From contig NZ_CP017057.1 in assembly GCF_001719165.1 (NCBI RefSeq), forward strand, positions 868,001-932,000: 64,000 nt of DNA. The letters are read 5' to 3'. Source of the DNA: Erythrobacter litoralis. GTDB taxonomy: Bacteria > Pseudomonadota > Alphaproteobacteria > Sphingomonadales > Sphingomonadaceae. Positions within the stretch are counted from its first letter, which is position 1. Each line of letters begins with the position of its first letter. Position numbers and translations under genes: made by a program. The notes beneath the pieces were generated by a model that worked only from the letters and a program-made list of their open reading frames with translations, was not told where the DNA came from and did not search any database. Below are positions 7,353-28,458 of the stretch, piece after piece.

Positions 7353-9458
7353 ATGGCCGATAGCGGCGATAGCAGGGGCAGCGGCACGACCAGCGCCAGG
7401 CGCGGCAACCTGCTGACGCGCGGCTGGCGCTCCATCCGTGAGGCGGGAACGCTCCAGCTGGCGGGCACTTTCGTCATGCTCCTGCTCGCGCTGACGATCG
7501 CGCGGTTCAGCTGGACGCTGCCCTTTACCGATGTCGCGACCCCGCTCACCAATGCGGCCGAGCGCGCCTTCTACGATTTGCGCAATTACTACGCTGCCGA
7601 CCTGGTCGAACAGGACGACCGCATCCTGATGGTGGTCTACAACGACCAGACGCTGATCAACGCCCAGAAGCGCTCGCCGCTCGATCGCGGCATGCTGGCC
7701 GAGGCGCTGCGCAATCTCGACGAACTCGAGCCCAAGGCGATCGGGATCGATATCCTGTTCGACCAGCCCCAGGCCGAAGATGACGAGCTGATCGAAACGC
7801 TCAGGAACATGAAGACCCCGGTCGCGGTCGGCTATGCCAATGTCGCCACCAACGAGGACGACATCGTCTACGAGCAACAGGTCTTCCTCGATGAATTCAT
7901 GAGCCGCCTCGAAGGCAGCAATGCGCGTCCAGCCAGCATCCGGCTCGACAATTCCTTCGGCGCGACGCGGGTCTGGCCGAGCATCGAGCCCGACCTGCCG
8001 CCGCTGCTGGGCCGCGCGATGCTGCGCGATGCCGGAGTCGATCTGGGGCGGTTCGAAACCTATCGCGGGGCGATCGAATATCGCCGCTCCAAGTTCGAGC
8101 AGCAGGCGGGCCTCGACGAGGCGGAGGTGTCCGAAGACCTGTTCGAATCCGCTGCGATAGACCTGTTCGTCGATCTCGACCCCTCGATCCTGCCTTTCCT
8201 GAAAGAGCAATATGGCGGTCGTTATGTCCTGATCGGGGGCGATATCGTCGACTACGACCGGGTCGAGACTACGTTCAGTTCGATCGACGGAAACGTGCCT
8301 CCGGGTCTTGCGGTCCATGCCGAGATCATCGCCCAGATGCTTGACGGCAAGGCGATGAACCCGGTGCCGAACTGGGCGAAATGGGCGATCGCGGTGCTGG
8401 TCGTGGCGATCGCCGCGCTTGTCGCGCTGCTCGAATGGCCGACCCGCAAGCGGGCTCCGCTTCTGGCGCTCATCTTCGCCATCCTGATCGGTATCCCGCC
8501 TTTGCTCGAAGTGCGAGATGTCGACACCTACGGCCTGCCGGCGGTCGGCTGGCTGCTTGGCTGGGTGCTCGCCTTCACCGCGGTCACCACGACGGCCCGC
8601 GCGGCAGGGGCGAAACAGCGCAGCTTCGCGCAGGGGGCGCTTGGCAAGTATATCCCGCGCGACATCGCGCAGGCGATCATCGACCGGCCCGAACTGCTCT
8701 CGCTCGGCGGCGAGAAGCGCGCGATCTACGTGCTGTTCTCCGATCTCGAGGGCTTCACCAAGATGAGCCACGCGATCCCGCCGGAAATGGTCGCGAAGCT
8801 GCTCAACCGCTATCTCGAGATGCTGAGCAAGGTGGTGCTCGATCATGGCGGGGTGATCGACAAGTTCGTCGGCGACGCGGTGGTCGCCTTCTGGGGCGCG
8901 CCGATCGCGCGGGCCGACGATGCCGAACGGGCCGCAAGGGCCGGCTATGCGATCTGGCAGGCGGGCGAGGAATTCCGCCGCGAGGTCGCGGAAATGGACC
9001 CCTCGCTCCCGCCGATCGGAAAGACTCGCGTCGGGCTCCATTATGGCGAGGCCGTCATCGGCAATTTCGGCGGCGACACGCGCATCCAGTACACCGCGCT
9101 CGGAGACAGCATGAACACCGCCGCGCGTCTGGAGGCTGCGAACAAGCCGCTCCAGTCGAGCGTCATGGCGAGCCGCGAATTTGCCGAACAGAGCGGGCTC
9201 GACTGGTGGCGCGCGATGGGCCGGGTGCAGCTGCGCGGCCGGGCGAAGCCGGTCGACATCTACGAGCCCGCGCCCGATTTCCCGCCCGAGGACCGCGCAC
9301 GGCTGGAGGAAGCGTCGCGGATCGCGGCCGAGGACGCGGCGCAGGCAGCCGCGCTGGTGGCCGACGTCCTCGCTAGGCATTCGGACGACACCGCGCTACA
9401 AAACCTCCAGCACAGAATGAAGAACCTCGATGAAGGGGGAGCCTATGTTCTCGGATAA
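7353..9458 (+). CDS. CHASE2-sensor class III adenylate/guanylate cyclase
   Basis: 701 aa. One membrane helix (about 33-52) leads to a large extracytoplasmic CHASE2 domain (about 55-325, with the FYDLRN and GIDILFDQP blocks typical of CHASE2). Three more helices (about 338-420) follow, then a cytoplasmic class III cyclase domain (about 430-640). The two metal-binding aspartates are visible: D464 in FSDLEGFT and D508 in FVGDAVVAFWGAP, 44 residues apart as in the family. The transition-state Asn/Arg pair lies in GDSMNTAARLE. It should therefore make cAMP (or cGMP) in response to an external or periplasmic cue. It is downstream of the CHAT gene in the same direction and its stop overlaps the next gene. 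A cyclic-nucleotide-binding oxidoreductase and a CpdA-like phosphodiesterase lie 12-18 kb further on. Confidence 0.9.
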   Translation: MADSGDSRGSGTTSARRGNLLTRGWRSIREAGTLQLAGTFVMLLLALTIARFSWTLPFTDVATPLTNAAERAFYDLRNYYAADLVEQDDRILMVVYNDQTLINAQKRSPLDRGMLAEALRNLDELEPKAIGIDILFDQPQAEDDELIETLRNMKTPVAVGYANVATNEDDIVYEQQVFLDEFMSRLEGSNARPASIRLDNSFGATRVWPSIEPDLPPLLGRAMLRDAGVDLGRFETYRGAIEYRRSKFEQQAGLDEAEVSEDLFESAAIDLFVDLDPSILPFLKEQYGGRYVLIGGDIVDYDRVETTFSSIDGNVPPGLAVHAEIIAQMLDGKAMNPVPNWAKWAIAVLVVAIAALVALLEWPTRKRAPLLALIFAILIGIPPLLEVRDVDTYGLPAVGWLLGWVLAFTAVTTTARAAGAKQRSFAQGALGKYIPRDIAQAIIDRPELLSLGGEKRAIYVLFSDLEGFTKMSHAIPPEMVAKLLNRYLEMLSKVVLDHGGVIDKFVGDAVVAFWGAPIARADDAERAARAGYAIWQAGEEFRREVAEMDPSLPPIGKTRVGLHYGEAVIGNFGGDTRIQYTALGDSMNTAARLEAANKPLQSSVMASREFAEQSGLDWWRAMGRVQLRGRAKPVDIYEPAPDFPPEDRARLEEASRIAAEDAAQAAALVADVLARHSDDTALQNLQHRMKNLDEGGAYVLG

Positions 9459-10254
9459 GATGAAACGACGCATTTCCAGGGCCGCGCTGATCGGTGCGGC
9501 GCTTGCCATGCCGGTCGCGGCGGCAGCGGGCGTGGTGGTGAAGTCCTCGGGGCCGTCCGCCGGCACCTACAAGGTCGGAACCAAGGTCGAAGACGGAGCC
9601 AGCATCACGCTTAAGGCGGGCGACAGCGTTACCGTGCTCACCAGCAAGGGCACCCAGGTGCTCAGGGGCGCGGGTACCTATACGGTGGGCGAAAAGCCCA
9701 AGGAGCCGCGTCTGCGCTTTGCCAATTTCACCCGTCAGGGCGCTGCGGGCCGGGTCCGCACCGGGGCCGTGCGCACGGGCGAGACGGGCGAGCTGGAGCG
9801 GCCGAACATGTGGTATGTCGACCTCACCCAGCCCGGCACCACCTGCCTCTACGATTTCGAGACCGTCCGCCTGTGGCGCCCCGATGCGAGCGAGGCGGCG
9901 ACCTATACCATGGTCGAACCTGAACTGGCGGACGCGGTCGAGGTCCATTTCGAAGCGAGGGAAGCTGCCCGTGTCCTCAATTCCGAACGGCTAATGCTGG
10001 CGGAAGGCCGCAGCTATGCGATCCGCGGACCGCTGATTGAGCTTTCCGGCGTCGCCGACGAGGAAGCCGAGAGGGAGACCGCGAGCGACATGCCCGCGGC
10101 CGAGCCCGCGCCCGAAGCGGAACCGGTGCGCATGACGTTCGCCCTCGTGGATGCTTACGAAACGCCCGAACAGCTTGCGGAAATGCTCATCGCGAACGGG
10201 TGCACTTCACAGCTCGCGATGATGGCCGACCGGCTCGAGGCCGACGCAGAATAG
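9445..10254 (+). CDS. Small exported FecR-like/hypothetical protein
   Basis: 269 aa from the ATG at 9445, chosen because AAGGGGGA precedes it and it overlaps the cyclase stop by 14 bp. An in-frame ATG at 9430 is the alternative. A clear signal peptide (about 1-28, ending near AAAAG) is followed by a compact beta-rich stretch (GTYKVGTKVEDGASITLKAG, then VTVLTSKGTQVLRGAG) resembling the start of FecR-type domains. The rest has no motif I recognise, and a Glu/Pro-rich stretch lies near 210-230. No membrane helix beyond the signal is evident, so the location is probably periplasmic. Position at the end of the Tps-CHAT-cyclase operon suggests it senses or binds something for the CHASE2 cyclase or the secretion module. 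The FecR assignment is tentative. Confidence 0.55.
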   Translation: MFSDKMKRRISRAALIGAALAMPVAAAAGVVVKSSGPSAGTYKVGTKVEDGASITLKAGDSVTVLTSKGTQVLRGAGTYTVGEKPKEPRLRFANFTRQGAAGRVRTGAVRTGETGELERPNMWYVDLTQPGTTCLYDFETVRLWRPDASEAATYTMVEPELADAVEVHFEAREAARVLNSERLMLAEGRSYAIRGPLIELSGVADEEAERETASDMPAAEPAPEAEPVRMTFALVDAYETPEQLAEMLIANGCTSQLAMMADRLEADAE

Positions 10255-10277
10255 TTTCCTGCACGCGCGGAACAGTC

Positions 10278-10310
10278 GATGGGCGCCGCGGCCGGGCCGC
10301 GGCGCCCATC
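10278..10310. terminator. Perfect 16-bp inverted repeat between convergent genes
   Basis: GATGGGCGCCGCGGCC is followed, after a single base, by its exact reverse complement. The repeat sits between the stop of the FecR-like gene (+) and the stop of the M24 peptidase (-). Downstream on the + strand is GCGTTTCTTC, a weak T-rich tail. It most likely acts as a bidirectional terminator or mRNA 3'-end stabiliser. Confidence 0.75.
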
Positions 10311-10318
10311 GCGTTTCT

Positions 10319-11704
10319 TCAGTCCGAGGGTATCAGCGTCAGCCGCGTCTGCCGCCCGTCGAGGAAGCGGACGCGTTCCCCGTCGAAGAAGGCATCCTCT
10401 TCCGATCGGAAATCGACCCGCTGGCCGCCCCATTCGGGCACGCTTGCATAGCTGGTGAGTTCGATCGACCACGCCGTGTCCGCCCGCAGGCGATATTCCC
10501 CGCGCGGATCGGGGTCCTGATTGTCCCAGAAACCGATCGCGCTCCCCGCGCCGTGGCCATGTAGACCGATCGGGTGCGAATAGATCGACGGGTCGAGGCC
10601 TTCCGCGACCGCCCGGGCGCGGGCGGCGGCAAGGATCTGGTTGCCGCTTAGCCCGGCTTCGAATTCCTCCATCAGGATGTCCTGCACGCGGTTGGTGTTC
10701 GCAAGGCCCTTTTGCAGTCCCTCGGGGGCCTCGCTCTCGCCGGGTTTCAGCACATAGGCGAGATGCTGGGTGTCGGTGTTGAGCCTGAGATAGGTGATGC
10801 CGAAATCGGTCCACAACAAATCGCCCGGCTCGATCACGACATCGCCGCGCAGCATGCCCTCCTCGCCTTCGCGCTGGATGCCGATCGAGGGGTGAAACCA
10901 TGGCGCGATGCCGAGCCGGGCGAGCCGATCTCGATACCACCATTCGACATCTGCTGCGGTGGTCGCGCCCGGGGTGATGACTGCACGCGACAGGGCCTCG
11001 GCGATGAAGGCGCGGGCGAGCGCGACGATCGCGGGATAGAGTTCCATCTCGTCCGGTATGCGCGTCTCGAGCCAGCGCAGGGCGAGCGTTTCGCCCGGCA
11101 CGATCCGTTCGCGATAGGTCTCGGGCAGGCGGGCGGTCATGGCGCGATACTGGCTCAGCGTCATGCCGTCCGCGAAGGCGGTGAGATCGGAGGTGTTGAT
11201 CGCGATTCGATCCGGGTCGCGCGCGGCGATGATATCGGCGACCGCCTGCCACTGGTCGGGCTGTTCGTCCGGGTTCCAGGCGGGTTCGAACAGGCCGGCA
11301 AGCCCATAGCGGCTGACCGTAAGCCGTTCGATCGGCTTTCCTTCGCCCGGATCGAACAGGACGAGGATGGTGCGCCTTCGCGCGTGCATGCTCCTTGCAT
11401 CGAGCATCGAGGCGACCACCGGCTCCTCGAAATATTCGCGCGCCATCATCACCCACATGTCCACGCCTTCTTCGCGCATGACCTGTGGCAGGACGGTCTC
11501 GAGCCGTTCGGCAAGGATGCCGTCGATGATTGCAGCCCGTTCGCGCATCGGCAGGGTGGTGAGGGTGCCTGCGTCAAGCGCTATGGCTGGCCCTGTGTCC
11601 TGCGCCCCATCGCGCGCCGCCAGCGATGCCGGCGCGAACAGCAGGCCCGCCGCCAGGGCGAGCGAGGCCGCCGCCTTTCCCAATTCCCGTATCGTCGCAC
11701 CCAT
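10319..11704 (-). CDS. Exported M24-family metallopeptidase (Xaa-Pro aminopeptidase/creatinase-like)
   Basis: 461 aa from the ATG at 11704. The frame extends further upstream, but the residues from this Met (MGATIRELGK, then a hydrophobic core ending near APASLAA) form a signal peptide, which fixes the start. An N-terminal creatinase-like domain (about 30-210) precedes the pita-bread M24 domain. The metal ligands can be read: the first Asp in WTDFGITY, the second in NTDTQHLAY, His in GLHGHGAGS, Glu in SIELTSY and a final Glu in the FRSEED segment. The enzyme should remove N-terminal residues ahead of proline, or act on a related substrate, in the periplasm. It stands alone between two + strand operons. 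Confidence 0.85.
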   Translation of the reverse strand: MGATIRELGKAAASLALAAGLLFAPASLAARDGAQDTGPAIALDAGTLTTLPMRERAAIIDGILAERLETVLPQVMREEGVDMWVMMAREYFEEPVVASMLDARSMHARRRTILVLFDPGEGKPIERLTVSRYGLAGLFEPAWNPDEQPDQWQAVADIIAARDPDRIAINTSDLTAFADGMTLSQYRAMTARLPETYRERIVPGETLALRWLETRIPDEMELYPAIVALARAFIAEALSRAVITPGATTAADVEWWYRDRLARLGIAPWFHPSIGIQREGEEGMLRGDVVIEPGDLLWTDFGITYLRLNTDTQHLAYVLKPGESEAPEGLQKGLANTNRVQDILMEEFEAGLSGNQILAAARARAVAEGLDPSIYSHPIGLHGHGAGSAIGFWDNQDPDPRGEYRLRADTAWSIELTSYASVPEWGGQRVDFRSEEDAFFDGERVRFLDGRQTRLTLIPSD

Positions 11705-11988
11705 GGCGCTGCCCCTCCGATCGCTCGACCCTTGCCCCTCTTGTGGGCGGGGACCATGGAGTTCGCCTGCCCGGCCTGTCAAACGCTCGCTTTGCGCGTT
11801 GCGGGGGAGCCGGAATTCCCGCGCCTTGGCGGGACCTTACAAGCCGCGGGGATAGAGCGCTGATAGCTTGCGTTTGATGCTGCGGGTGATAGGCTCGCCG
11901 CCCGTCGCCGGGACCGGGTCGCCATTGGGATGGACGGCCCGTTCCGCAACGGAAATGGCGGGCCTTGGACATCTCGCGGGGGGATGGG

Positions 11989-13398
11989 ATGACGACATTG
12001 CTGGGCAGGAATTTCGCCCGGATTCGCGCGGCGCTGCGGCAGGGGGCCGGCCATCATGGTGCCGGGCTGATGCGTGTCGCCGCCCTGTGCGCGCTTGCCA
12101 TCCTCTATCCCGCCACCTTCGCCAGCGGCAACGCGACCTATGAAGGCGTTGCAAGCTGCGCCGGATCGACCTGCCACGGCCGCGCCGAAGGAAACGGTGC
12201 GGTGGTCCGGCAGGACGAGATCGCGACCTGGCAGAACCCGGCTTCGCAGAGCGGCGCGCATTCCCGCGCCTATGCCGCCCTCGCGACGCTGCGCGGGCAG
12301 CAGATCGCCGACAGCCTCGGCCTTGGCCGCGCGACCGAGGCACCGGCCTGTCTCGGCTGCCACGCGACCTTCGCTCCAGCCTCGCAGCGGGGTGACCGTT
12401 TCATCCTGTCCGAAGGTGTGGGCTGCGAATCGTGCCACGGTCCTTCGGGCAAGTGGCTCGCCGAACATTACGCCCGGCCCGCGACCCATGCCTCGAACGT
12501 GGCGGCCGGCCTCGTCCCGCTGGAAAACCCGCAGTCGCGCGCCAATGTCTGTCTCGACTGCCATTACGGCTCTGCGAACCGGGGGCAGTTCGTCACGCAT
12601 TCGATGATGGCGGCGGGCCATCCGCGCGTTTCGTTCGAACTCGACCTGTTCAGCGCGCTCCAGCAGCATCACGACGTCGACGGCGACTACATCGATCGCA
12701 AGGACCGGCCCGATGCGGTGCGGTTCTGGGCGGTCGGCCAGGCCGAGGCGGTGCGGCGGGCGACCGGCCTGTTCGCGCAGCCGCGCTTCGCGATGGAGGG
12801 CGCGTTTCCGCAATTCTATTTCTACGACTGCCATTCCTGCCACCGCACGATCACCGATGCGGCCCAGAGGAAGCTCACTTTCGAAACCAATCCGGGCCGG
12901 CCGATCCCCTTTGGCAACCCGCCCTTCAATGACGAGAACATCATCATGCTGTCCGCGGTCGCGGGCGCGCTGGTGCCTGCGCAGGCGGAGGAATTCCGCA
13001 CTGCAAGCCGCGGCTTTCACAAGGCGATGGGCGAAGGGCCCGAGGCCGCGCGCGAGGCGGCGAAGCTCCTTTCGGCCCGCGCGGGGGCGCTCTCGAGCGC
13101 GCTGAATTCGCGAGCCTATGGCAATGAGGATGCGTTCCGGGTGATCCGCGTGATCGCGGACGAGGCGACGTCGGCGCGCTTCACCGATTATGCGGGGTCG
13201 GTGCAGGCGGTGATGGCGATCGACACGCTTCTGAATGCGCTGGTCAAGGACGGGCGCGTGACCATGGCGGCCGCCGCCGGCATCCGCGCCGACATCAACC
13301 GCGCCTACCGGGCCGTGGCCGAGCCCAATTCCTACCGCCCGGCACAGTTCCGCAGCGCGCTGCGCACCGCAGCGGGCGCGATCGGCAGGCTCGGCTGA
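11989..13398 (+). CDS. Pentahaem c-type cytochrome
   Basis: 469 aa from the ATG at 11989, preceded by a purine-rich GGGGGGATGGG. A TTG at 11965 is also in frame. A hydrophobic segment at about 28-46 is a signal or anchor. Five haem-attachment motifs are seen. The first is CAGSTCH (C57), which is CX4CH rather than CX2CH. Then come CLGCH (C121), CESCH (C146), CLDCH (C188) and CHSCH (C281). The region after ~330 is helical with no haem motif. The arrangement resembles cytochrome c554-type multihaem proteins. It is the first gene of a + strand operon with a lipoprotein, a barrel and a decahaem protein, and its TGA overlaps the ATG of the next gene. Likely role: periplasmic electron carrier for that complex. 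Confidence 0.87.
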   Translation: MTTLLGRNFARIRAALRQGAGHHGAGLMRVAALCALAILYPATFASGNATYEGVASCAGSTCHGRAEGNGAVVRQDEIATWQNPASQSGAHSRAYAALATLRGQQIADSLGLGRATEAPACLGCHATFAPASQRGDRFILSEGVGCESCHGPSGKWLAEHYARPATHASNVAAGLVPLENPQSRANVCLDCHYGSANRGQFVTHSMMAAGHPRVSFELDLFSALQQHHDVDGDYIDRKDRPDAVRFWAVGQAEAVRRATGLFAQPRFAMEGAFPQFYFYDCHSCHRTITDAAQRKLTFETNPGRPIPFGNPPFNDENIIMLSAVAGALVPAQAEEFRTASRGFHKAMGEGPEAAREAAKLLSARAGALSSALNSRAYGNEDAFRVIRVIADEATSARFTDYAGSVQAVMAIDTLLNALVKDGRVTMAAAAGIRADINRAYRAVAEPNSYRPAQFRSALRTAAGAIGRLG

Positions 13399-15356
13399 TG
13401 CGATTTCGGGGGGGGACAGCTCTCTTCGCGGCGAGCGCGCTGGTGCTCGCCTCCTGCGGGGGCGGGGACAGCAATGCGCCAACGGGCGGCGGAACGGGCG
13501 GCGCGCCTGCGAACCCGCCGCCACCGCCGCCACCGCCGACGGGCGCGCTGTATTCGGTCCCCGCGGCCGAAAGCCTTTCCGCCGCCGATGTTGGACGCGT
13601 CGTCGCGCAGGCCGCTGCTCAGGCCGATGCCCAGGGCGCGTCCGCGGTGATCGCGGTGACCGACCGGGTAGGCAATGTCCTTGCGGTATTCAGGATGCCC
13701 GGCGCACCCGCGCTCGCCAGCATTCCCGATGCGCCCAACGGGCAGAACATCGACGCGCAGGGGCTCGACGTGCCCGCCGAGGCCGCGGCCATCGCCAAGG
13801 CGATCACCGGGGCCTATCTCTCGAGCGGCGGCAATGCCTTTTCATCCCGCACCGCCAGCATGATCGTGCAGGAGCATTTCCCGCCCGCACCCACGACCGT
13901 CGGCCTCGAAAGCGGGCCGCTGTTCGGGGTGCAGTTCAGCCAGCTTCCCTGTTCCGACCTCGTGCGCCGCGCGAGCGACGGGCCGATCGGGCCGAAGCGC
14001 TCTCCGCTCGGCCTGTCGGCGGACCCGGGCGGTTTCCCGCTCTACAAGAACGGTGTCGTCGTCGGCGGAGTCGGCGTCATGGCGGACGGGGTCTATGGCT
14101 CCGATCCCAACGTTCTCGACATGGACGTGGACACGGACGAGGCGATCGCACTGGCAGGCACGATCGGGTTCGAGGCACCCGTCAGCATCCGCGCGGACCG
14201 GATCTTCGCCGACGGGACGAGCCTGCGGTTCTCGGACACGAGCTACACCATGCTCGCCAATGTCGCGGGCGCCAGTTTCGCGGGAACGGCAGGAACGCTC
14301 GTTCCGGTGACGGGCTATTACCCGGGCGGCGCGCTGCGGGCAGGTTCGACATACGGCACCGAAAGCTCCGGGATCAGGCCTTCGACCGCGGCGGAATTCT
14401 CGATTCCCGACGCCTTCGTGTTGACCGACGGGGCGGGCAACAACCGCTATCCCGTGCGCGGCGGGACGGACGGGGCGGAAATCGCCGCGCCGATCAGCGA
14501 GGGTGAGGCGCGTGCGATCCTCGAGGAAGCCTTCACGGTCATGAGCCGCGCGCGCGCGCAGATCCGGCAACCGCTGGACAGCCGCGCGCAGGTGACGATC
14601 AGCCTCGTCGATACGCGCGGCCGCGTGCTCGGCATCGTGCGGTCTCCCGATGCGCCGATCTTCGGCACGGATGTGAGCCTGCAGAAGGCTCGCACCGCCA
14701 ATTTCTTCTCCGCACCCTTTGCCGCCAGCGAATTGCTCGCCGCGCAGGGCGAGGTTCCCGACTTCGTCCAGCGGGTGAGGAGTTTCCTCGGCGATCCGAA
14801 TGCGCTGACGGGCAGCTTCGCTTTCGCCGACCGGTCCGGCGGGAACCTGTCGCGGCCCTATTTCCCCGATGGCGAGGTGGGCCAGCCGCACGGGCCGCTG
14901 TCGCGCCCGATCGAACAGTTCAATCCGTTCTCCACGGGGCTTCAGTCGGCGCTGATCGTCGACAATCTAGCGCAGCATCTCGGCTTCGTCACCGGAGCGG
15001 CCGCAAGCGACACGCCCAACAATTGCACGACCCTGCCCGAGGTGACGCCCGGCGCAACGCGGCTCGACAACGGCATCCAGATCTTTCCCGGTTCGGTCCC
15101 CGTCTATCGCGGCAACGTGCTTATCGGTGGAATCGGCGTGTCGGGCGACGGGATCGACCAGGACGACATGATCAGCTTTTTGGGCCTCCACAATGCCGGG
15201 CAGAGGGTCGGCAGCATGGGCAATGCGCCGAAGGAAATCCGAGCCGACCGCATCGTGGCGCAGGTGGGCGGCCGGCAGGTGCGGCTGCGCTATGTGAACT
15301 GCCCGTTTGCGCCGTTCCTCGATACGGCCGAGCAGAATGTCTGCGAGGGGCTCTAG
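13398..15356 (+). CDS. Lipoprotein with two HbpS/GlcG-like (DUF336) domains
   Basis: 652 aa. The signal peptide ends in the lipobox LASC (Cys ~20), followed by a Gly/Thr/Pro linker with a polyproline run, so the protein should be lipidated. Two copies of an HbpS/GlcG-like domain can be recognised: about 45-260 (ADVGRVVAQAA, then AVIAVTDRVGNVLAVFRMP and GGVGVMADGVYG) and about 365-640 (EGEARAILEEA, then ISLVDTRGRVLGIVRSPDAP and GGIGVSGDGID). Family knowledge: HbpS of Streptomyces binds haem and senses iron or redox stress; many homologues are uncharacterised. The start codon overlaps the stop of the pentahaem cytochrome and the stop is 3 bp before the barrel gene, so it belongs to the cytochrome operon. 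A haem-binding or redox-sensing accessory role is inferred. Confidence 0.78.
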   Translation: MRFRGGTALFAASALVLASCGGGDSNAPTGGGTGGAPANPPPPPPPPTGALYSVPAAESLSAADVGRVVAQAAAQADAQGASAVIAVTDRVGNVLAVFRMPGAPALASIPDAPNGQNIDAQGLDVPAEAAAIAKAITGAYLSSGGNAFSSRTASMIVQEHFPPAPTTVGLESGPLFGVQFSQLPCSDLVRRASDGPIGPKRSPLGLSADPGGFPLYKNGVVVGGVGVMADGVYGSDPNVLDMDVDTDEAIALAGTIGFEAPVSIRADRIFADGTSLRFSDTSYTMLANVAGASFAGTAGTLVPVTGYYPGGALRAGSTYGTESSGIRPSTAAEFSIPDAFVLTDGAGNNRYPVRGGTDGAEIAAPISEGEARAILEEAFTVMSRARAQIRQPLDSRAQVTISLVDTRGRVLGIVRSPDAPIFGTDVSLQKARTANFFSAPFAASELLAAQGEVPDFVQRVRSFLGDPNALTGSFAFADRSGGNLSRPYFPDGEVGQPHGPLSRPIEQFNPFSTGLQSALIVDNLAQHLGFVTGAAASDTPNNCTTLPEVTPGATRLDNGIQIFPGSVPVYRGNVLIGGIGVSGDGIDQDDMISFLGLHNAGQRVGSMGNAPKEIRADRIVAQVGGRQVRLRYVNCPFAPFLDTAEQNVCEGL

Positions 15357-21407: not shown

Positions 21408-22292
21408 CTATTCGCGCTCGGCGTTGAGCCCCTGCATCATCGGTACGAGCTTGTCCTCGTAGCGGGCGAGCGTCGGCCAGTCGCCGACTGGCTGGAAATG
21501 CGTCACCAGCGCGCCTTCGTGCCAGCGATGCAGGCTGAAGAAGGGCGGCTCGGCGGTCACGATAGCGCGAGCATCCGCATGGTCGAAATCGAGCGGGCTG
21601 AGATCGAGCGCCACGGCCGGAGCCACCGCGGGCGTCACCGAAACCGGGATGTGCCCGACCATCGCGTGCAGCGGGCGGTGGAGGTGGCCGCAGCGGATGC
21701 CGACGATCTGGCGGTGCGCCGCGACCGTTTCATGGAAGCGCCGGAACCAGTCCTCGTGCGGGCGCGGGTCCATCCAGTCGATCCCGGCGACGACCGGCGG
21801 GTGATGGATGAAAAGCACGGTGGGCGTTTCGGGATGCGCTTCGAGTTCGGCGGTGAGCCAGGCTGCGCGGGTTTCGCAGAAGGCCCCGCCGTGGCGGCCT
21901 TCCTCGAGACTGTCGAGGCAGATGACGCGCAGGCCCCGGCATGCGGCGGTGAACTGCACGAAGCCGTTCGGGTCGGCATATTCGGGAAAGGCACGCAGCA
22001 ATTCGCCGCGGGCATCGTGGTTTCCCGCCATCGGATAGACCGGGAACGGGCAGCGTTCGACGGCGGACTTTAGCCGCGCGTAGCAATCGGGATCGCCGTT
22101 GTCGGCAAGGTCGCCGGAAAGCACCAGCATGTCCGGCTGGCTCGGCAAGGCGAGGATGGCGTCGAGCACGGCGAGGCAGCGTAGATAGTTGAACTCCGCC
22201 TCGCCCGCACCCGGATCGTATCCGATATGCGTGTCGGTCACCTGCGCGATGATCACGCCGGCCTTGCTGTCATCCCCCCTCGCCATGCTCAT
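21408..22292 (-). CDS. cpdA: CpdA-like metallophosphoesterase (cAMP phosphodiesterase)
   Basis: 294 aa, no signal peptide, so cytoplasmic. All calcineurin-like motifs are present in order: DTH (D20, H22), GDLADNG (D61), GNHD (N91-D93), a later IHHPP and GHLHRPL. Length and motif spacing fit the class III cyclic-nucleotide phosphodiesterases of the CpdA group. The start overlaps the stop of the FHA-decahaem gene (ATGA), so it is the last gene of a four-gene operon that begins with a cyclic-nucleotide-binding oxidoreductase. This supports cAMP as substrate. Other calcineurin-like enzymes (for example UDP-diacylglucosamine hydrolases) are less likely given the motifs and context. Substrate specificity cannot be proved from sequence. 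Confidence 0.83.
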   Translation of the reverse strand: MSMARGDDSKAGVIIAQVTDTHIGYDPGAGEAEFNYLRCLAVLDAILALPSQPDMLVLSGDLADNGDPDCYARLKSAVERCPFPVYPMAGNHDARGELLRAFPEYADPNGFVQFTAACRGLRVICLDSLEEGRHGGAFCETRAAWLTAELEAHPETPTVLFIHHPPVVAGIDWMDPRPHEDWFRRFHETVAAHRQIVGIRCGHLHRPLHAMVGHIPVSVTPAVAPAVALDLSPLDFDHADARAIVTAEPPFFSLHRWHEGALVTHFQPVGDWPTLARYEDKLVPMMQGLNAERE

Positions 22293-24067
22293 TTCCTTAC
22301 CACACCAAGCCTTGCCGCAATGTTATCTTTCGGCATTTCGGGGAGGTCGGGGTGGTCTTCCGGTTTCCACGGCATGGTCGGCGTGTGATAGCCGTGGCAC
22401 ATCGCGCAGGAGGAGGGGACGATTTCGCTGGTCTTCACCGCGCTCGCCCCCTTGTGGCAGTCCTGGCAGCTTTCGAGGTCGGGGATGAGAAGATCGGTCG
22501 CCGCCTTCGAAGTCGCCGCCTCGTGGCAGTCGGTGCATTTCTCGTCCTCATGCGCCTTGTGGCTGAAGAACCCGTGCATGAGGAAGCGGTCGGGCAGGTT
22601 GACAGGGACGAGGTCGGGCCTGCCGCCGGTCGTCGTGCGGATGTGGCATTCGGCGCAGACGCCGCCTTCCTGCAGCGCGTTGTTGACACTGATGAGCGAG
22701 CGCACGGGCCGTCCGAAATCGCTGTAATAGGCCCCGCCGCGGGCGAACTCGCCGGGCCGTTGCCGCCTGCCGCCGAGCTGCGGGCGGGGCGAGCGCGAAA
22801 GGCTTGCCATGTCCTCGCGGAAATCATCGAGGTCGCCGTGGCGCAGCGAGCGGAAACCGCTGGCGGTGCGGGCGAAGACGAGGCTGTGGCAGCTTTCGCA
22901 GGCGTCTTCCATCTCGACCTCCTGAAATCCGATCCCCTCGGGTCCTTCCTCGTGGCAGTCCGCGCATTCGAGCGGTGCGCCGTATTCGGGCAGGCTCAGC
23001 GCCATGCGCGCCGCGCCGCCCTGTCTGTCCATGTGGACGTCGTGCGGGAACTTGAGCCCGCTGCGTTCGACGGGCTCCCGCTCGAGCGAGACCCTCATCG
23101 GCTTTTCTGCGCCCAATCGGGTGTAGAAGGTCGGACGGAATTGCGGGTGCTTCTTTCCGAAATCATGCGCATTGCCGAGCCGCGTATCGGTCAGGCGCGT
23201 GTCGAGATCCCCGTGGCAATCCGCACAGAACTGCTCGCTCGCCGCCTCGAGCCTGACCGGGCCTTCGTGTTCGGAATGGCACGATACGCAGCCCAGCGGC
23301 CCTTCCTTGCCTAGCGTTTCGGCGATCCGCCACTGGATCGCATCGCCCTGACTGAGCGGCGGCATCCCGGCGGCAAGGCGCGGCATTTTCGCGTGGTCGC
23401 CCAGCTCCTCGTGACAGGTGAGGCAGGTTGCGTCCTGCACGCTGACGAAGGGGGTCGCGTGGCAGGCCTCGCAATTGTTCTCGAGATCGTGATGGGCCAT
23501 CGACAATTCGCCCGAGGACCACGCGTCATCGAACACCACCTGCCCGGGCATGTCGCTTTCGGGATCGTTCTCGACCGGCGTTCGGGTGAGATGGGTGACG
23601 ATCGGCACCGACAGCAGCAGGACGAGGATCGCGCCGGCAAACGTCCAGCTCATCGCTCGCTTGCTCGGCAGGGCGCTTGCGAGCTGGAAGCCGGCCAACG
23701 CGTCGCCCTTGCCCTCCCGGCTTTCCGCCTGGCGGATTGTGATGCTGACCGTGCCGTCCGGTTCGCGCGCGATGGCGAGCAGGGCGGAGCCCAGCTCGAT
23801 CTCCGCCCCTTCGCGCGGATCGATCGTTTCGGCCTGAGTCGTCCTGCCATTGAGGCCGAATCCGAGCGTTCCGACCGCTTCGACCTTGAGCGCATCGGGG
23901 CCGATCGCGGTAATCGTCACGTGGTTCTGTTCGACCGCGAGATCGGGCAGGTGGATCGCGTTCTCGGCCGCGCGCCCGACCCCGATCCGGTCCTCGGCGA
24001 CGGTTCGTTCGCGCACGATCTCGCGCCCGGCGGCGGTGTAATCGATGGTGCGGATCAGGAACGCCAT
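22289..24067 (-). CDS. FHA domain, membrane anchor, decahaem c-type cytochrome
   Basis: 592 aa. Residues ~20-105 form an FHA-like domain (VGRAAENAIHL with R32 kept, then VEQNHVTI, where the usual Ser-Arg before His is Glu-Gln). One membrane helix lies at about 139-160. Residues 170-592 hold ten CXXCH motifs with first cysteines at 199, 215, 260, 281, 368, 390, 471, 511, 534 and 554. The layout predicts a cytoplasmic FHA domain and a periplasmic decahaem domain anchored in the inner membrane, similar in position to NapC/CymA-type quinol dehydrogenases but unrelated in design. It lies 10 bp after the di-haem-b gene and its stop overlaps the cpdA-like start. FHA domains usually bind phosphothreonine, so kinase-dependent control or assembly is possible. 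No kinase is seen in the window. Confidence 0.9.
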   Translation of the reverse strand: MAFLIRTIDYTAAGREIVRERTVAEDRIGVGRAAENAIHLPDLAVEQNHVTITAIGPDALKVEAVGTLGFGLNGRTTQAETIDPREGAEIELGSALLAIAREPDGTVSITIRQAESREGKGDALAGFQLASALPSKRAMSWTFAGAILVLLLSVPIVTHLTRTPVENDPESDMPGQVVFDDAWSSGELSMAHHDLENNCEACHATPFVSVQDATCLTCHEELGDHAKMPRLAAGMPPLSQGDAIQWRIAETLGKEGPLGCVSCHSEHEGPVRLEAASEQFCADCHGDLDTRLTDTRLGNAHDFGKKHPQFRPTFYTRLGAEKPMRVSLEREPVERSGLKFPHDVHMDRQGGAARMALSLPEYGAPLECADCHEEGPEGIGFQEVEMEDACESCHSLVFARTASGFRSLRHGDLDDFREDMASLSRSPRPQLGGRRQRPGEFARGGAYYSDFGRPVRSLISVNNALQEGGVCAECHIRTTTGGRPDLVPVNLPDRFLMHGFFSHKAHEDEKCTDCHEAATSKAATDLLIPDLESCQDCHKGASAVKTSEIVPSSCAMCHGYHTPTMPWKPEDHPDLPEMPKDNIAARLGVVRK

Positions 24068-24077: not shown

Positions 24078-24953
24078 TCACCAATAGTAGAACACGCTCA
24101 CGACATGCGCGAGCAGGGCGGCGAGCAGTGCGATCGTCGCCGGGATGTGAATGAAGAGCCAGATTTCGAGAGCCGCGCGAATCCGCAGGTGGCGCCGGAT
24201 CTGGGCGAGCTGTTCGGACCGGCGGGCAAGGAGCGCATTGACCCTTTCGAGCGCCTGCCCTGCATCGCCGCTCGCATTATCGGGCATCCGGCGGATCGCC
24301 CTCGCTGTGGCGCAGCGGGGATAGGACCCGGTCAGCCTGCCCCACGCCCCGCCATGAAACACGTCCTGTTCGAGCGCGGCGATGACGAGATCGGATTCGC
24401 TGCGCCCCAGCGGCTGCGCGGCGGCTTCGAGCTGGCGGTCGATCGCGGTCAGGCTTTCGAGCATCTGCGCGCGCGTCATCTCGCCGCGGTTGGAGGACAG
24501 GCTTTTCGGCAGGGTCGCATATGCATAGACGCCGTAAATGCCGGTGAAGATAACCAGCAGCATCAGCGCATAGGCGAGCGTGTGGACATTCCAGCCGACC
24601 TGGAAACCGGTGTGCAGCGTGCCGATCACGATGAGCGACAGGCCGAGCCAGACATGCGCGCTGGTCCAGGCCTTGAGCGACCAGTTGCCGGTCGTGATGT
24701 AGCGCTTGCGCACTCCCAGCAAAGACAGCCACACGATCAGGACGAGGCCGACGGTGCCCAGCGTATAACCGTACCACGACCCGCCATTGGGCCGGGGCTG
24801 CTGGTCGATCAGCGCATAGCCCAGTCCCGCGACCACGCTCAGCAGGAGCGCGAGTTTGAGCCACCGCCAGTTCCTGTGCTTGAGGAAGCTGACATGGTCG
24901 GCATCGCGCCGCTTTTCGTCGAGGTGGTAGCGATTGGTGGCCTTGGTAGCCAT
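24078..24953 (-). CDS. Di-haem b membrane protein (cytochrome b561/ferric-reductase-like)
   Basis: 291 aa from the ATG at 24953, which overlaps the stop of the preceding FAD/iron-sulfur gene. An upstream extension in the same frame would run into that gene. Five hydrophobic helices: about 31-49, 61-80, 98-115, 124-145 and 262-289, with a long cytoplasmic helical loop at 150-258. Two helices each carry a His pair spaced by 13 residues: H100/H114 and H269/H283. That H-X13-H pattern in two helices is what NOX/ferric-reductase-type proteins use to stack two b haems across the membrane. H124 is additional. The likely role is to carry electrons from the cytoplasmic FAD/iron-sulfur protein to the periplasmic FHA-decahaem protein. 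The haem ligands are inferred from spacing only. Confidence 0.78.
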   Translation of the reverse strand: MATKATNRYHLDEKRRDADHVSFLKHRNWRWLKLALLLSVVAGLGYALIDQQPRPNGGSWYGYTLGTVGLVLIVWLSLLGVRKRYITTGNWSLKAWTSAHVWLGLSLIVIGTLHTGFQVGWNVHTLAYALMLLVIFTGIYGVYAYATLPKSLSSNRGEMTRAQMLESLTAIDRQLEAAAQPLGRSESDLVIAALEQDVFHGGAWGRLTGSYPRCATARAIRRMPDNASGDAGQALERVNALLARRSEQLAQIRRHLRIRAALEIWLFIHIPATIALLAALLAHVVSVFYYW

Positions 24954-27397
24954 CACTCCACGTCCTCGGTCAGCTTGGTATAGGTCAGGAACTTGTCGGG
25001 CGAGACGCGGATAGCCGCGCCCGTCGGGCACGCGCGCACGCAGGCGGGGCCGCCTTCAATGCCTGAACACATGTCGCACTTGATCGCCTGTTTCGGCTCT
25101 TCGGGATCGCCGTGCTTCTTGCGCCACGCATAGGACGCCTCGCCCGGTCCCGGGCCTTTGCCGAACAGCAGCCATTGCAGGAAGGATGGCTTCTTCGGCG
25201 GCTTGGGATCCATCCGGATCACGTCATAGGGGCAGTTGCGCTGGCAATTGCCGCAGCCGATGCAGGTCTCGTCGATGAACACCTCGCCGTCCGGCCCGCG
25301 ATGGATCGCATTGGGCGGGCAGTCGGCCATGCAATGCGGGTGCTCGCAGTGGCGGCACGATGTCGGCACGTGGAGATGGGCGTAGGTCCGCCCCGCCTCG
25401 CGGTCCAGTCGAGAGAGGCCCTCATGCGCGTCGGCACAGGCCTTTTCGCAATTGTCGCAGCCGATGCACAGCGTCTCGTCGATCAGCAGCACGTCGGTCG
25501 CTTCGCCGAGCCCCTGGTCGACGAGGAATTGCGCGGTTTCCGAATACATGTCGACCGCGCCTTCGAAATCGTCCTTGCGGCTTTCGATGAAGGCGTTGAT
25601 CTCGCGCCGCTTGGCCATTTCCTTCAACGCCGTGTCGCGCAGCGTGGGATGTTCGTCGAGCAGCTTGACGAAGCCTTCGCCCGGCAGGCGGATCACCTCG
25701 GCCTTGATCGCCGCCTTGACCGTCGCGGTGCGTTTCGACCCGTCGATCGCGGCCATTTCCCCGACATAACTGCCCGCCGGGAGATAGGAGAGGAAGACCT
25801 GCCGCCCGCCGATGTTCTTTTCGACGATCATCGATCCGCGCCGGATGATGAAGATGTCCTTGTCCTCGGCCCCTTCCTCGATGATGACCTGTCCCGCGCG
25901 CACATCGACGACCTTGGCGCTGTCGACCAGCGGGGCGACGTCCTGCTTGGTCAGGCCCGATCCGAACATCTGGAGCAATTGGCGTTCGATCGAGATGCGG
26001 GTGACCGCGCGCGCTGCGCCGGGCGATGTGGCGATCAGCTTCAATGCGGCGGTGCGCGACAGTTCGAGCGCGACGACCGGCTCCGCCGCGCGGATCGTCG
26101 CGCCGCGCCGTCGGCCGGAGATGAGGCCGACCTCGCCGAAGATCTCGCCCTCGCCGATCGGCACCGTGACAGAGGGGTCATTCGGGTTCACCTCGACCGC
26201 GACCGAACCCTGCGCGATCGCGAACATCGAGGAGCCCGGCTCGTTGCGGCGGAAGATCACCTCGCCCGGCTCGTAGGCGTGGCAGCGCGAATCCAGCATC
26301 AGTTCGCGCAATTGCAGCGGGGAGAGGTCGGCGAGGATCGAGACATTGTCGCCATAGACGCCGAGCCAGTGATCGACATCGTGATTGCCGGGCAGGTTTG
26401 CAAATTTTTCGGCGAGGATCGGCTCGTCGGCGGGCTTGAGATCGAGATTTCCGCCCAGGAACTCGATCACGTCATAACCCTGGTTCATGCAATGCTTGAT
26501 CAGCGGGTAGCCCGCCAGCGCGCCGATCACGTGGATGCCGGGCTTGGTCGTCTCGAACACGGGGGAGAGCTTGGGAAAGGCACCGCGATCCTCGCCGGTG
26601 AACTCGATCCCCATCGCCTCGACGAAGCCGCGCGGCGGCTGCGATCCGGTGCGCGCGATGATGCGGTCGCAGCGGATCGTCTCCTGCCCGTCGCGCGTGT
26701 CGAGGACGAGCTCGCCCTCCTTCACCTCGGCCGGCTGGGTTTCGCGCCGGACGATGATCCGCCCGTCGCGCTCGGCCTCTTCGAGCAGGGCGACATTGTC
26801 CTTCTTCGCGCGGGCGAAGCTGTCGCCGCGATTGAGGATCGTCACCACGTTGCGCTGCGCATCGTCGGCGGCGAGGCCCAGGGCGTTCTCGATCCCCGCA
26901 TCGCCCGATCCGACGACGGTGATGTGCTCGTCGTAATATTCGCCGGGATCGTCGAGCTGGTATTGGATCATGGGTGAATCCGCGCCGGGGCAGCGCAGCT
27001 TGTTGGGATTGCCCTGCGTCCCGATGGCGAGCACGATCGCCTCCGCCCGCACCGTCTCGCCGCTTTTAAGCTTGAGCTGGAAATCGCCCTTGTCGCCGGT
27101 CACCTCGGCGACTTCGGCGTTCATCTTCACGTTCACGCCCTGTCCGGCGGCCTGTTCGTCCCAGACGCCGAGGATCGTCTCGCGCTTGCCGGCGGCGAAA
27201 TCGAAATCGCTGCGCAGCACGAGGTTCGAGGGCGTCGCCATGACGTGCTTGCCCTTCTGGTACTTGAAGATGGTGTCGGAGAGGTGGTCGGTTTTCTCCA
27301 GCAGCACATGGCTCATGCCGAGCGCAGCCGCCCGCGCCGCCGCGCTCAATCCCGCGGGGCCCGATCCAACAATGGCGACTTTATACAAATCCGACAA
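24953..27397 (-). CDS. FAD/NAD(P) oxidoreductase, two cyclic-nucleotide-binding domains, four-[4Fe-4S] ferredoxin fusion
   Basis: 814 aa from a TTG at 27397. The open frame reaches back to 27796, but that would cover the divergent TPR gene, and a strong G-rich ribosome site lies just before the TTG. Domain 1 (1-325) is a thioredoxin-reductase-like FAD/NAD(P) fold with GSGPAG (11-16) and GSGDAG (163-168), lacking a redox CXXC. Domains 2 and 3 (about 352-470 and 480-595) are CRP-type cyclic-nucleotide-binding folds. Their phosphate cassettes are FGEVGL...RRGAT (420-434) and VGEMAA...KRTATV (545-560). Domain 4 has 16 cysteines in four clusters: 644/647/650/654, 681/684/689/693, 712/715/718/722 and 774/777/786/790, in the style of HybA/NrfC/DmsB subunits. 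No signal or helix, so cytoplasmic. It starts the operon with the cytochrome b and decahaem genes. Confidence 0.92.
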   Translation of the reverse strand: MSDLYKVAIVGSGPAGLSAAARAAALGMSHVLLEKTDHLSDTIFKYQKGKHVMATPSNLVLRSDFDFAAGKRETILGVWDEQAAGQGVNVKMNAEVAEVTGDKGDFQLKLKSGETVRAEAIVLAIGTQGNPNKLRCPGADSPMIQYQLDDPGEYYDEHITVVGSGDAGIENALGLAADDAQRNVVTILNRGDSFARAKKDNVALLEEAERDGRIIVRRETQPAEVKEGELVLDTRDGQETIRCDRIIARTGSQPPRGFVEAMGIEFTGEDRGAFPKLSPVFETTKPGIHVIGALAGYPLIKHCMNQGYDVIEFLGGNLDLKPADEPILAEKFANLPGNHDVDHWLGVYGDNVSILADLSPLQLRELMLDSRCHAYEPGEVIFRRNEPGSSMFAIAQGSVAVEVNPNDPSVTVPIGEGEIFGEVGLISGRRRGATIRAAEPVVALELSRTAALKLIATSPGAARAVTRISIERQLLQMFGSGLTKQDVAPLVDSAKVVDVRAGQVIIEEGAEDKDIFIIRRGSMIVEKNIGGRQVFLSYLPAGSYVGEMAAIDGSKRTATVKAAIKAEVIRLPGEGFVKLLDEHPTLRDTALKEMAKRREINAFIESRKDDFEGAVDMYSETAQFLVDQGLGEATDVLLIDETLCIGCDNCEKACADAHEGLSRLDREAGRTYAHLHVPTSCRHCEHPHCMADCPPNAIHRGPDGEVFIDETCIGCGNCQRNCPYDVIRMDPKPPKKPSFLQWLLFGKGPGPGEASYAWRKKHGDPEEPKQAIKCDMCSGIEGGPACVRACPTGAAIRVSPDKFLTYTKLTEDVE

Positions 27398-27402
27398 TCT
27401 AT

Positions 27403-27412
27403 CCCCCCCCTT
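27403..27412 (-). promoter_or_regulatory. G-rich ribosome-binding site that sets a TTG start
   Basis: On the minus strand AAGGGGGGGG lies about 5-6 bases upstream of TTG at 27397. The first residues from that TTG (LSDLYKVAIVGSGPAG) place the FAD-binding glycine motif at residue 10, as in the family. No ATG or GTG start fits between here and the domain. Confidence 0.65.
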
Positions 27413-27507
27413 ACGGATAGATTTTTTCCCGCTCCACCATAGGGAAATCGCGGGTGGATGCCAGAGAGAATTGCCCGTTTCTCCCAGCGCTGCTAGCGCC
27501 TCGATCC

Positions 27508-28458
27508 ATGGCTGGAGACACCGACAAGACTGCGGGCGGGACGAATTCGAAGGCGGGCTGGGTCCTGCTGGGCGCGGCGGCGCTGCTGGCGGCGGGTTCG
27601 ATCGGGTACAATGTGCTCGGCACCGGCGATAGCGGGACCGCGACACAGGGGGCGGAGGCTGGCGAACCGACGCTAGACGAATTGCGCGCCGCCGCTGCGG
27701 CTTCGCCCGACAATGCCGAACCGTGGGCTGCGCTCGGCTTTGCGCTGTTCGCGCGCGACGATTACGAGGGCGCGGCAGAGGCCTATGGCCGCGCAACCGA
27801 GATCGACGGCGAGGCGGCGGTGCTGTTCTCGGCGCTCGGTGAGGCGCTGCTCTATGCCGAGGATGCGAACGCGCCCGATGCCGACCCGATGCCCGCGCCC
27901 GCTCTCACCGCGTTCCGGCGCGCGGTCGAACTCGACCCGACCGATCCGCGCGCGCGCTATTTCCTCGGCGTGAAGAAGGATCTCGACGGTGATCACGAAG
28001 GCGCGATTGCCGACTGGCTCGACCTGCTTTCCGACACGCCGCCCGGTGCGCCGTGGGAAGCCAATCTCGTCCAGACCATCCGCCAGATCGGCCAGATCAA
28101 CGAAATCGAAGTCGACCAGCGCATCGCCGCGGCGATGGACGGACGCCTGCCGCCGATGATGGCAGGCGGGGGAGGGGGCGCTGCCGCCCCCAACGGCCCG
28201 ACCCCGGCCCAGATCGCCGCCGCGCAGGATATGTCGCAGGACGATCGGGACGCGATGATCGAAGGCATGGTCACCCAGCTCGAAGCGCGGCTCGAAAACG
28301 TGCCCGGCGATCTCAACGGGTGGGTGATGCTGATGAGGAGCCGCGTCAATCTGGGCGAGGCGGACAAGGCGCGCGCCGCGCTGGAGCGGGCGATAGCGGC
28401 CAATCCGGGCGAAGAGCAGGAATTGCGGCGGCAGGCGCAGATGCTCGGGATCCGCTAG
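27508..28458 (+). CDS. CcmI/NrfG-like TPR protein (cytochrome c assembly chaperone candidate)
   Basis: 316 aa from the ATG at 27508. A GTG at 27454 with AGGG upstream is an alternative start adding 18 residues. One membrane helix at about 16-38 anchors a periplasmic TPR domain. The repeat DPRARYFLGVKKDLDGDHEG followed by AIADWLDLL matches the C-terminal TPR part of CcmI/CycH and NrfG, which present apocytochromes to the haem ligation machinery. A low-complexity Gly/Ala stretch sits near 210-225, and a last TPR-like unit (GWVMLMRSRVNLGEADKA) ends the protein. It is divergent from the FAD/iron-sulfur gene with only 110 bp between the starts, so the two may share control. A dedicated assembly role for the local multihaem proteins is inferred. 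Confidence 0.75.
   Translation: MAGDTDKTAGGTNSKAGWVLLGAAALLAAGSIGYNVLGTGDSGTATQGAEAGEPTLDELRAAAAASPDNAEPWAALGFALFARDDYEGAAEAYGRATEIDGEAAVLFSALGEALLYAEDANAPDADPMPAPALTAFRRAVELDPTDPRARYFLGVKKDLDGDHEGAIADWLDLLSDTPPGAPWEANLVQTIRQIGQINEIEVDQRIAAAMDGRLPPMMAGGGGGAAAPNGPTPAQIAAAQDMSQDDRDAMIEGMVTQLEARLENVPGDLNGWVMLMRSRVNLGEADKARAALERAIAANPGEEQELRRQAQMLGIR

Follow-up and report, generated by a model that had tools for sequence, protein, structure and literature searches.

Positions 868001-932000 of the 3.25-Mb single-contig genome of Erythrobacter litoralis (NZ_CP017057.1, GCF_001719165.1), a stretch of 64,000 nucleotides that we refer to as the window and number from its first letter, carry two convergent operons that combine multihaem cytochromes with an inner-membrane protein, a putative outer-membrane barrel and a protein binding flavin adenine dinucleotide (FAD), cyclic nucleotides (cNMP) and Fe-S clusters. 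We consider it probable, though by no means certain, that they encode an electron conduit across the cell envelope, with a cyclic nucleotide controlling its cytoplasmic input. The minus-strand genes are called the input operon below and the plus-strand genes the output operon. Their products are as follows:

11965..13398, plus strand: periplasmic pentahaem c554-like cytochrome, one CX4CH and four CXXCH (Pfam and motif count)
13398..15356, plus strand: lipoprotein with HbpS-like haem-binding-type domains (PF03928, E 2e-21)
15360..17204, plus strand: predicted outer-membrane beta-barrel, 614 amino acids (aa), 18 strands, AlgE/OprD-like fold (AlphaFold2; no Pfam match)
17204..21358, plus strand: exported decahaem cytochrome with a C-terminal LVIVD propeller, 1384 aa (ten CXXCH, LVIVD)
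21408..22292, minus strand: CpdA/SpdA-like metallophosphoesterase, 294 aa (E 3e-14)
22289..24067, minus strand: FHA-like domain, one membrane span and a periplasmic decahaem cytochrome, 592 aa (ten CXXCH)
24078..24953, minus strand: predicted inner-membrane protein, five helices by eye, with ligands for two b haems (the 'IMP' type of He et al.), 291 aa (motifs)
24953..27397, minus strand: FAD/NAD(P)H oxidoreductase followed by two cNMP-binding domains and four [4Fe-4S] sites, predicted to be cytoplasmic, 814 aa, TTG start (Pfam and alignment)

The output operon reads from the pentahaem gene through the HbpS-like lipoprotein and the barrel to the decahaem-LVIVD gene, with 1-nt overlaps at 13398 and 17204 and a 3-nt gap; the true start of the pentahaem gene is probably an internal ATG. 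The input operon runs towards it, from the FAD/cNMP/Fe-S gene through the membrane protein and the FHA-decahaem gene to the metallophosphoesterase, and its joins are a 1-nt overlap at 24953, a 4-nt overlap at 22289-22292 and a 10-nt gap. A consensus scan found no terminator between the convergent operons. An initial annotation of this DNA had already described the two operons with their domains, haem counts and overlaps, all of which prove real and recurrent, although its list of parts passed over the HbpS-like lipoprotein at 13398-15356.

The set of about eight genes is conserved among bacteria of soil and water, and that both operons form one system is well supported by their distribution. 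We compared the best 80 of at least 288 confirmed stretches encoding relatives of the FAD/cNMP/Fe-S protein, a sample of near relatives that each share at least 64% identity with the window protein. The membrane protein and the FHA-decahaem protein are each matched in 79 of the 80 loci, and the contig of the locus lacking both (L055) ends 136 bases after the input gene. The phosphoesterase is matched in 73 loci, in four of which (L094, L100, L101 and L102) it lies some 5 kb beyond the module, and the decahaem-LVIVD gene is found within the flanks examined in 43. Carriers among these 80 belong to Erythrobacter, Alteraurantiacibacter, Novosphingobium, Sphingobium, Sphingomonas, Sphingopyxis, Blastomonas and Phenylobacterium. 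The input gene also occurs on twelve Sphingobium plasmid records of 0.88-1.28 Mb. On one plasmid, pMSHV of S. herbicidovorans, the two halves converge in the same way as those of the window, separated by two small genes, and are annotated piecemeal: the input half as a cyclic nucleotide-binding protein, a hypothetical protein, a cytochrome c3 family protein and a metallophosphoesterase, and the output half as a multiheme c-type cytochrome, a hypothetical protein, a heme-binding protein and a cytochrome c family protein.

The initial annotation had taken the parts for one system, a view that would sit badly with fusion proteins found mostly apart in other genomes. The pattern seen is the opposite: among 147 genomes of the order Sphingomonadales, the FAD/cNMP/Fe-S protein (cut-off E 1e-60) is present in 25 and the decahaem-LVIVD protein (cut-off E 1e-50) in the same 25. 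Five genera (g1, g3, g5, g6 and g15) are mixed, holding both positive and negative genomes, and in each of them the two proteins are present or absent jointly among the genomes listed (102 negatives are unlisted). The two genes are unlinked in nine of the 25 genomes, being hundreds of kb from each other on a single contig in five (G035, G065, G080, G110 and G119) and on different contigs of draft assemblies in four (G074, G097, G121 and G133). A wider sample of 299 genomes from the phylum has the input protein in nine and the output protein (cut-off E 1e-20) in five, all within those nine, so that no genome of either sample has the output protein without the input protein. Finally, in two loci from two other families (L206 of G504 and L207 of G496), both halves lie on one strand in the order input protein, membrane protein, FHA-decahaem, pentahaem (L206 only), HbpS-like lipoprotein, barrel and decahaem-LVIVD; in L206, the part examined does not take in some 1.4 kb that separate the pentahaem frame from the HbpS frame, and it covers the LVIVD gene in part.

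The FAD/cNMP/Fe-S protein joins a pyridine nucleotide-type flavin domain (Pyr_redox_3, E 9e-30) to tandem cNMP domains (E 4e-36) and an Fe-S part (Fer4_11, PF13247, E 3.6e-11), the cNMP domains being placed between the flavin and Fe-S parts. We aligned 89 sequences, comprising the window, the 80 loci and the more distant L113-L118, L206 and L207, seven of which share 42-57% identity with the window protein and L118 65%. All 16 Fe-S cysteines are invariant in the 89 rows, and the glycine motifs for FAD and NAD(P) show one gap and four Ala among them. In the nucleotide fold, the second strand is followed by an NR..F.RAK stretch that resembles the NADPH motif of thioredoxin reductases. In both cNMP domains, the Glu and Arg of the phosphate-binding cassette, which we assume to be its key residues, are invariant in all 89 rows, down to about 42% identity, as is the Gly of the Gly-Glu pair; both domains thus have the intact Glu/Arg cassette of a cAMP-regulated protein. 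Domain relatives of this protein are the YpdA and thioredoxin-reductase flavoproteins and the tandem cNMP regulators of PKA/PKG type: among the 60 of 162 PDB matches listed, the tandem is best matched by PKG and PKA regulatory subunits, and no chain combines such domains with four [4Fe-4S] clusters. A second FAD/cNMP/Fe-S copy lies at 9545-11929 of L114 (G147, C17), with no membrane-protein or decahaem match in the 19 kb around it and with a cyclase match about 4 kb away.

The membrane protein is matched in 86 of the 88 loci used, of which 85 have two WX3HX13H motifs (L059 has one) and all 86 have [ST]GxxG. In L115 and L116 it forms a single uninterrupted open reading frame (ORF) with the input protein, of 1123 and 1118 codons, respectively, which argues for direct contact between the two proteins. 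These loci come from genomes of one genus (L115 is G295 and L116 is G179), so perhaps a single fusion event is involved, and Met codons near the joint of both fused ORFs leave separate translation possible. Of the FHA-decahaem protein, 19 homologues were aligned; its ten haem motifs are kept throughout, one of them as CX4CH in L115 and L116. His is also invariant at exactly ten further positions, the number that bis-His haems would require. Its ten haems thus stand as initially annotated, whereas its FHA domain is a weak Pfam match (Yop-YscD_cpl, E 3e-4), in which all 19 homologues nevertheless keep the Gly and Arg that pair in an FHA-type site.

The four output genes are matched together in all 20 loci compared, which surround the LVIVD gene in 20 of the 24 other positive genomes of the order, with a partial pentahaem match in L167 and a stop inside the match in L166. 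By sequence, the pentahaem protein has a single match among solved structures, cytochrome c554 (E 0.0095). The lipoprotein has a lipobox in the eight orthologues looked at. An AlphaFold2 model of the barrel has 18 strands (predicted local distance difference test, pLDDT, 67.8; predicted template modelling score, pTM, 0.70), with residues 1-112 and some loops poorly modelled. A PDB fold search placed AlgE and OprD-type channels closest to it, and MtrB is absent among the 50 of 862 matches listed. The model supports an outer-membrane barrel; it does not support a haem protein threading that barrel as in MtrAB. In the decahaem-LVIVD protein, all ten haem motifs are invariant in 30 aligned sequences, and a comparison with solved structures by sequence returned no match.

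The initial annotation knew of no described system with these parts together. The exact set was indeed not found in the papers searched, but a related combination of porin, cytochromes, Fe-S protein and membrane protein had already been reported as PCC4, the predicted porin-cytochrome clusters of He et al. (2017; PMC5566968). Their main text gives PCC4 a porin, cytochromes with 4, 5 and 10 haems, an Fe-S protein of family PF13247 whose gene precedes that of the membrane protein (Subgroup II) and other redox proteins; it counts three periplasmic cytochromes and no extracellular multihaem cytochrome (PMC5566968). The PCC4 membrane protein has WX3HX13H on transmembrane helices TM3 and TM5, motifs read as two b haems, and SGXXG on TM4 (PMC5566968), where the window protein reads TGIYG. 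The terms 'cNMP', 'cyclic', 'FAD' and 'FHA' are absent from that main text, although a supplementary domain figure may show them (PMC5566968), and PCC4 occurs in two of the papers listed, one of which (PMC13264449) mentions it once. In the open-licence PMC papers searched, we found no description of the present system or of its sensor link, and no PCC4-class CNB-Fe-S subunit (with a cyclic nucleotide-binding, CNB, domain) described as such; two listed papers that contain LVIVD concern different topics, judging from their titles.

A profile search with the membrane protein found matches in 38 of 398 genomes of the phylum, and the stretches around 16 places were taken for comparison. Two carry the full system (L206 and L207), seven are PCC4-like, four PCC3-like and three neither (L212, L215 and L221), these labels being assigned here by gene content and not by the accession list of He et al. 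The PCC4-like loci (L208-L211, L213, L214 and L220) encode a CNB-4Fe-4S-type protein, the membrane protein and a multihaem protein with ten motifs (six before the contig end in L211); a c554-like protein with 3-4 CXXCH lies upstream in six of the seven, and a protein with five CXXCH further upstream in three (L209, L214 and L220). Profile comparison supports homology with the window for the membrane protein (E 6e-21) and the CNB-Fe-S part (E 1e-50). Of the two loci scanned for a reductase, L209 has an FAD_binding_6/NAD_binding_1/2Fe-2S protein preceding the set and L208 has NAD_binding_1 and 2Fe-2S matches; the same input function thus appears twice, there as a separate NAD(P)H reductase-type protein.

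The window system shares with PCC4 the WX3HX13H membrane protein, with both its WX3HX13H motifs and [ST]GxxG, the PF13247 CNB-4x[4Fe-4S] gene directly upstream, an NAD(P)H reductase-type protein and a barrel; c554-like and decahaem cytochromes are also common to both, but with weaker matches driven by the haem motifs. The barrel shows no similarity to the one PCC4-like porin candidate compared with it (L208:2-1444, no Pfam match, from a locus that is PCC4 by gene content; hhalign E 0.62). The window protein carries a flavin domain of thioredoxin-reductase/YpdA type in one chain with the CNB-Fe-S part, whereas the flavin or reductase gene of the PCC4-like L208 and L209 is separate; the first cassette of the PCC4-like CNB-Fe-S proteins keeps Gly-Glu and Arg in all seven and the second is degenerate, whereas both are intact in the window; and the two window operons encode cytochromes with 5, 10 and 10 haems and no four-haem protein. 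The window further adds the HbpS-like lipoprotein, the exported decahaem-LVIVD protein and the CHASE2 and phosphoesterase neighbours. Judged by gene content, the system appears to stand beside PCC4 rather than inside it, as a new variant of the predicted porin-cytochrome cluster type, with the fused NAD(P)H-flavin input, the FHA-like part on the decahaem protein, the 18-strand barrel and the decahaem-propeller end as its new elements.

Other known systems are more remote. With PCC3, the window shares an inner-membrane protein with two HX13H, a porin, and periplasmic and presumably extracellular multihaem cytochromes; the PCC3 cytochromes of Gallionellaceae have 21-27 (periplasmic) and 10-35 haems (PMC5566968; PMC10734462), whereas each window protein has at most ten haem motifs. 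The PCC3-like loci L216-L219 have haem-motif pairs of 21/8 (a contig end truncates the 8), 24/19, 24/27 and 24/34 beside the membrane protein; no CNB-Fe-S match was found in them, and flavin-domain matches occur several kb away in L218 and L219 only. The Mtr/Mto/Pio systems likewise pair periplasmic and outer-membrane multihaem cytochromes with a beta-barrel, but the window has only sub-cut-off matches to MtrA/MtrC-type families (DmsE far below its cut-off), and its barrel is modelled with 18 strands and is nearest to AlgE. Electrons enter Mtr-type systems through the quinol dehydrogenase CymA; in the window, entry would be through the NAD(P)H-flavin/Fe-S/di-haem-b chain. As to the Ext selenite/tellurite operon, the decahaem-LVIVD protein is weakly like ExtM (54 bits against a cut-off of 800), over about 50 residues around two haem motifs.

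A likely cyclic-nucleotide source lies upstream of the output operon:

7353..9458, plus strand: CHASE2-sensor class III adenylate cyclase, the likely signal source (E 3e-25, 9e-14)
9430..10254, plus strand: exported 'FecR-like' partner of the cyclase, in an overlapping ORF (no Pfam match; named by reading of the sequence)

The cyclase is where the initial annotation placed it, though separated from the output operon by an M24 peptidase gene on the other strand, and has the metal, Lys, Asn and Arg residues that we would expect of an adenylate cyclase. Its homologue and the FecR-like gene are matched together beside the output operon in the same eight of the 20 loci, and in the Phenylobacterium-type loci L094, L100, L101, L102 and L174 a different CHASE2 cyclase follows a phosphoesterase, about 5 kb from the input module; in L174 (11308-13167, G395), the catalytic Asn appears to be replaced, and this sensor may no longer make cAMP. 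We searched 30 of the 32 genomes with the input protein (G179 and G295 were left out) and found 68 matches to the CHASE2 family in 29 of them. In 21 of the 30 genomes, one or other half has a CHASE2-domain gene no more than 30 kb away, against 1.8 expected for random placement (0 of 200,000 simulations reached 21). This count is a guide only: the 30-kb limit was fixed with the list already in view, related genomes are not independent, and the majority of these CHASE2 genes are unverified as cyclases. The intact binding cassettes and the recurring CHASE2 neighbour support a cyclic-nucleotide link, through which the conduit may be gated.

Taken together, these features suggest the following route. 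Electrons would pass from NAD(P)H to FAD, along the 4Fe-4S chain to the two b haems and on to the periplasmic FHA-decahaem protein; a relay of pentahaem and decahaem cytochromes would then carry them to the decahaem-LVIVD protein, whose propeller may sit at the outer membrane or the cell surface, and from there to an extracellular or otherwise bulky acceptor. Outward flow seems likelier, because the membrane potential (negative inside, positive outside) helps the electron, as in NADPH oxidases. cAMP made by the CHASE2 cyclase, as the presumed ligand, would bind the tandem cNMP domains and open or close the flavin-to-Fe-S step, thereby changing the rate of transfer; the phosphoesterase might reset the signal, and the FHA domain may add phospho-dependent docking. 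Of the electron path put forward initially, the section from the NAD(P)H-flavin/Fe-S part through the di-haem-b protein to the periplasmic haems is supported by the invariant ligands and by the fused ORF of one genus, whereas the crossing of the outer membrane, by way of an 18-stranded AlgE-like barrel, is a weaker proposal. More tentatively, and with the odds leaning slightly the other way, a second messenger might gate a transmembrane electron wire directly, here and throughout the PCC4 class, with cAMP from a periplasm-sensing CHASE2 cyclase switching NAD(P)H-driven export at the protein and not at transcription.

Several observations weigh against this interpretation, in addition to the limits of the CHASE2 count given above. 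The phosphoesterase, called CpdA-like at first, is a metallophosphoesterase at the end of its operon, but it scores better against the model of SpdA, which acts on 2',3'-cyclic nucleotides (E 1e-35, 123.7 bits; curated cut-off 400), than against that of CpdA (E 7e-23, 81.6 bits; NCBIfam equivalog cut-off 225). Both scores fall far below their cut-offs, and SpdA is not known to act on 3',5'-cAMP; hydrolysis of that nucleotide by the window enzyme is therefore putative at most, and its specificity for 3',5'-cyclic nucleotides may be doubted. With a barrel modelled as 18-stranded and AlgE-like, a haem wire through the barrel is likewise no more than putative, and since the model of the decahaem part of the LVIVD protein is poor (946 aa, 30 sequences; pLDDT 35, pTM 0.29), the surface position would follow from the signal sequence and the neighbours. 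No CHASE2 gene lies within 30 kb in nine of the 30 genomes (G019, G065, G080, G116, G121, G127, G133, G147 and G296), and G296 has none anywhere. The pentahaem protein was not found in L207. The main evidence against strict pairing comes from four genomes with a distant input protein (44-51% identity) and no decahaem-LVIVD match, G147, G179, G295 and G296; HbpS and barrel matches lie downstream of the input gene in G296, close to the contig end, and in the other three, whose whole genomes were covered for the LVIVD protein, there is no HbpS or barrel match within 15.7 to 19.9 kb around it.

Four alternatives have to be weighed against a cyclic nucleotide-gated outward conduit. In the first, which seems to us somewhat unlikely, the conduit does run outwards, but the cNMP domains are structural or bind another ligand, and cAMP acts, if at all, through CRP on transcription. 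CNB domains can be structural, and the control of electron-transfer genes by cAMP-CRP in Shewanella is transcriptional; the nine genomes without a nearby CHASE2 gene and the degenerate second CNB of the PCC4-like relatives would fit such an arrangement. The invariance of Glu and Arg in both cassettes at such distances speaks against it, as does the best match of the tandem to cyclic nucleotide-dependent kinases and regulatory subunits among the 60 of 162 PDB matches listed, and CRP-like sites in the window are not above chance (9 found versus 10.8 expected).

We regard electron uptake, in which Fe(II), Mn(II) or some other donor outside the cell would feed the same wire in the inward direction, as unlikely. 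The PCC3 and PCC4 models, as presented in the main text of He et al., do take electrons from such an extracellular donor into the quinone pool, and PCC3 is present in a Mn(II)-oxidising Erythrobacter (PMC5566968). The input protein, however, carries an NAD(P)H-flavin domain, and inward transfer to NAD(P)+ from high-potential metals would be uphill in both redox and membrane potential. A surface or periplasmic reductase for the acquisition of iron or haem, or for detoxification (e.g. by ferric or tellurite reduction), in which the HbpS-like lipoprotein holds haem or iron, has a similarly small chance of being correct. The presence of that lipoprotein in all 20 output operons, the weak likeness of the membrane protein to ferric reductases (PF01794, E 4e-3, below the cut-off) and the weak likeness of the decahaem-LVIVD protein to ExtM point in this direction, but an assimilatory reductase would not usually involve as many as twenty-five c haems, and the ExtM match is confined to its short stretch. 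That two independent redox operons merely lie side by side is very improbable: the nine unlinked genomes and the four with no LVIVD match could be cited for it, but the identical presence and absence in 147 genomes, including inside the five mixed genera, and the one-strand order in L206 and L207 speak against chance adjacency.

Two further genes flank the operons:

10319..11782, minus strand: M24 peptidase, between the cyclase and the output operon (Pfam)
27454..28458, plus strand: divergent CcmI/CycH-like tetratricopeptide (TPR) protein of cytochrome c maturation, an associated neighbour (PF23914, E 5e-16)

The M24 peptidase is matched in none of the 20 related loci and none of the 80, most of which do not reach so far, and appears to be a passenger. 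The CcmI-like gene, present and divergent as first described, is matched in 67 of the 80 loci. In the Phenylobacterium locus L094 (6903-9918), the CcmI-like gene is separated from the input module by ORFs that we read as CcmF- and CcmH-like, which places the module at the cytochrome c maturation locus in that case. In the window, the gene immediately upstream of the CHASE2 cyclase encodes a CHAT-domain TPR protein (4230-7316; PF12770, E 2e-48), preceded by a 1133-aa ORF with no Pfam match (869-4270). The CHAT, CHASE2 and FecR-like genes are also together in L111 and L152; however, the CHAT-TPR gene is matched in only two of the 20 and four of the 80 loci, and we do not count it as a component. 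A glutamate dehydrogenase gene (29468-31021, PF00208) lies beyond the system, and look-alike ORFs were seen by eye near it in L058 and L174.

Metal-breathing specialists have supplied most of what is known about extracellular electron transfer, and its control is generally placed at the level of gene expression. The system described here is found in Sphingomonadales and Phenylobacterium and would carry its own cyclic-nucleotide sensor within the redox chain. It ties the orphan PCC4 clusters to a likely source of NAD(P)H electrons, and it would offer a genetically accessible case in which to ask if electron flow across a membrane can be switched on or off by a second messenger.

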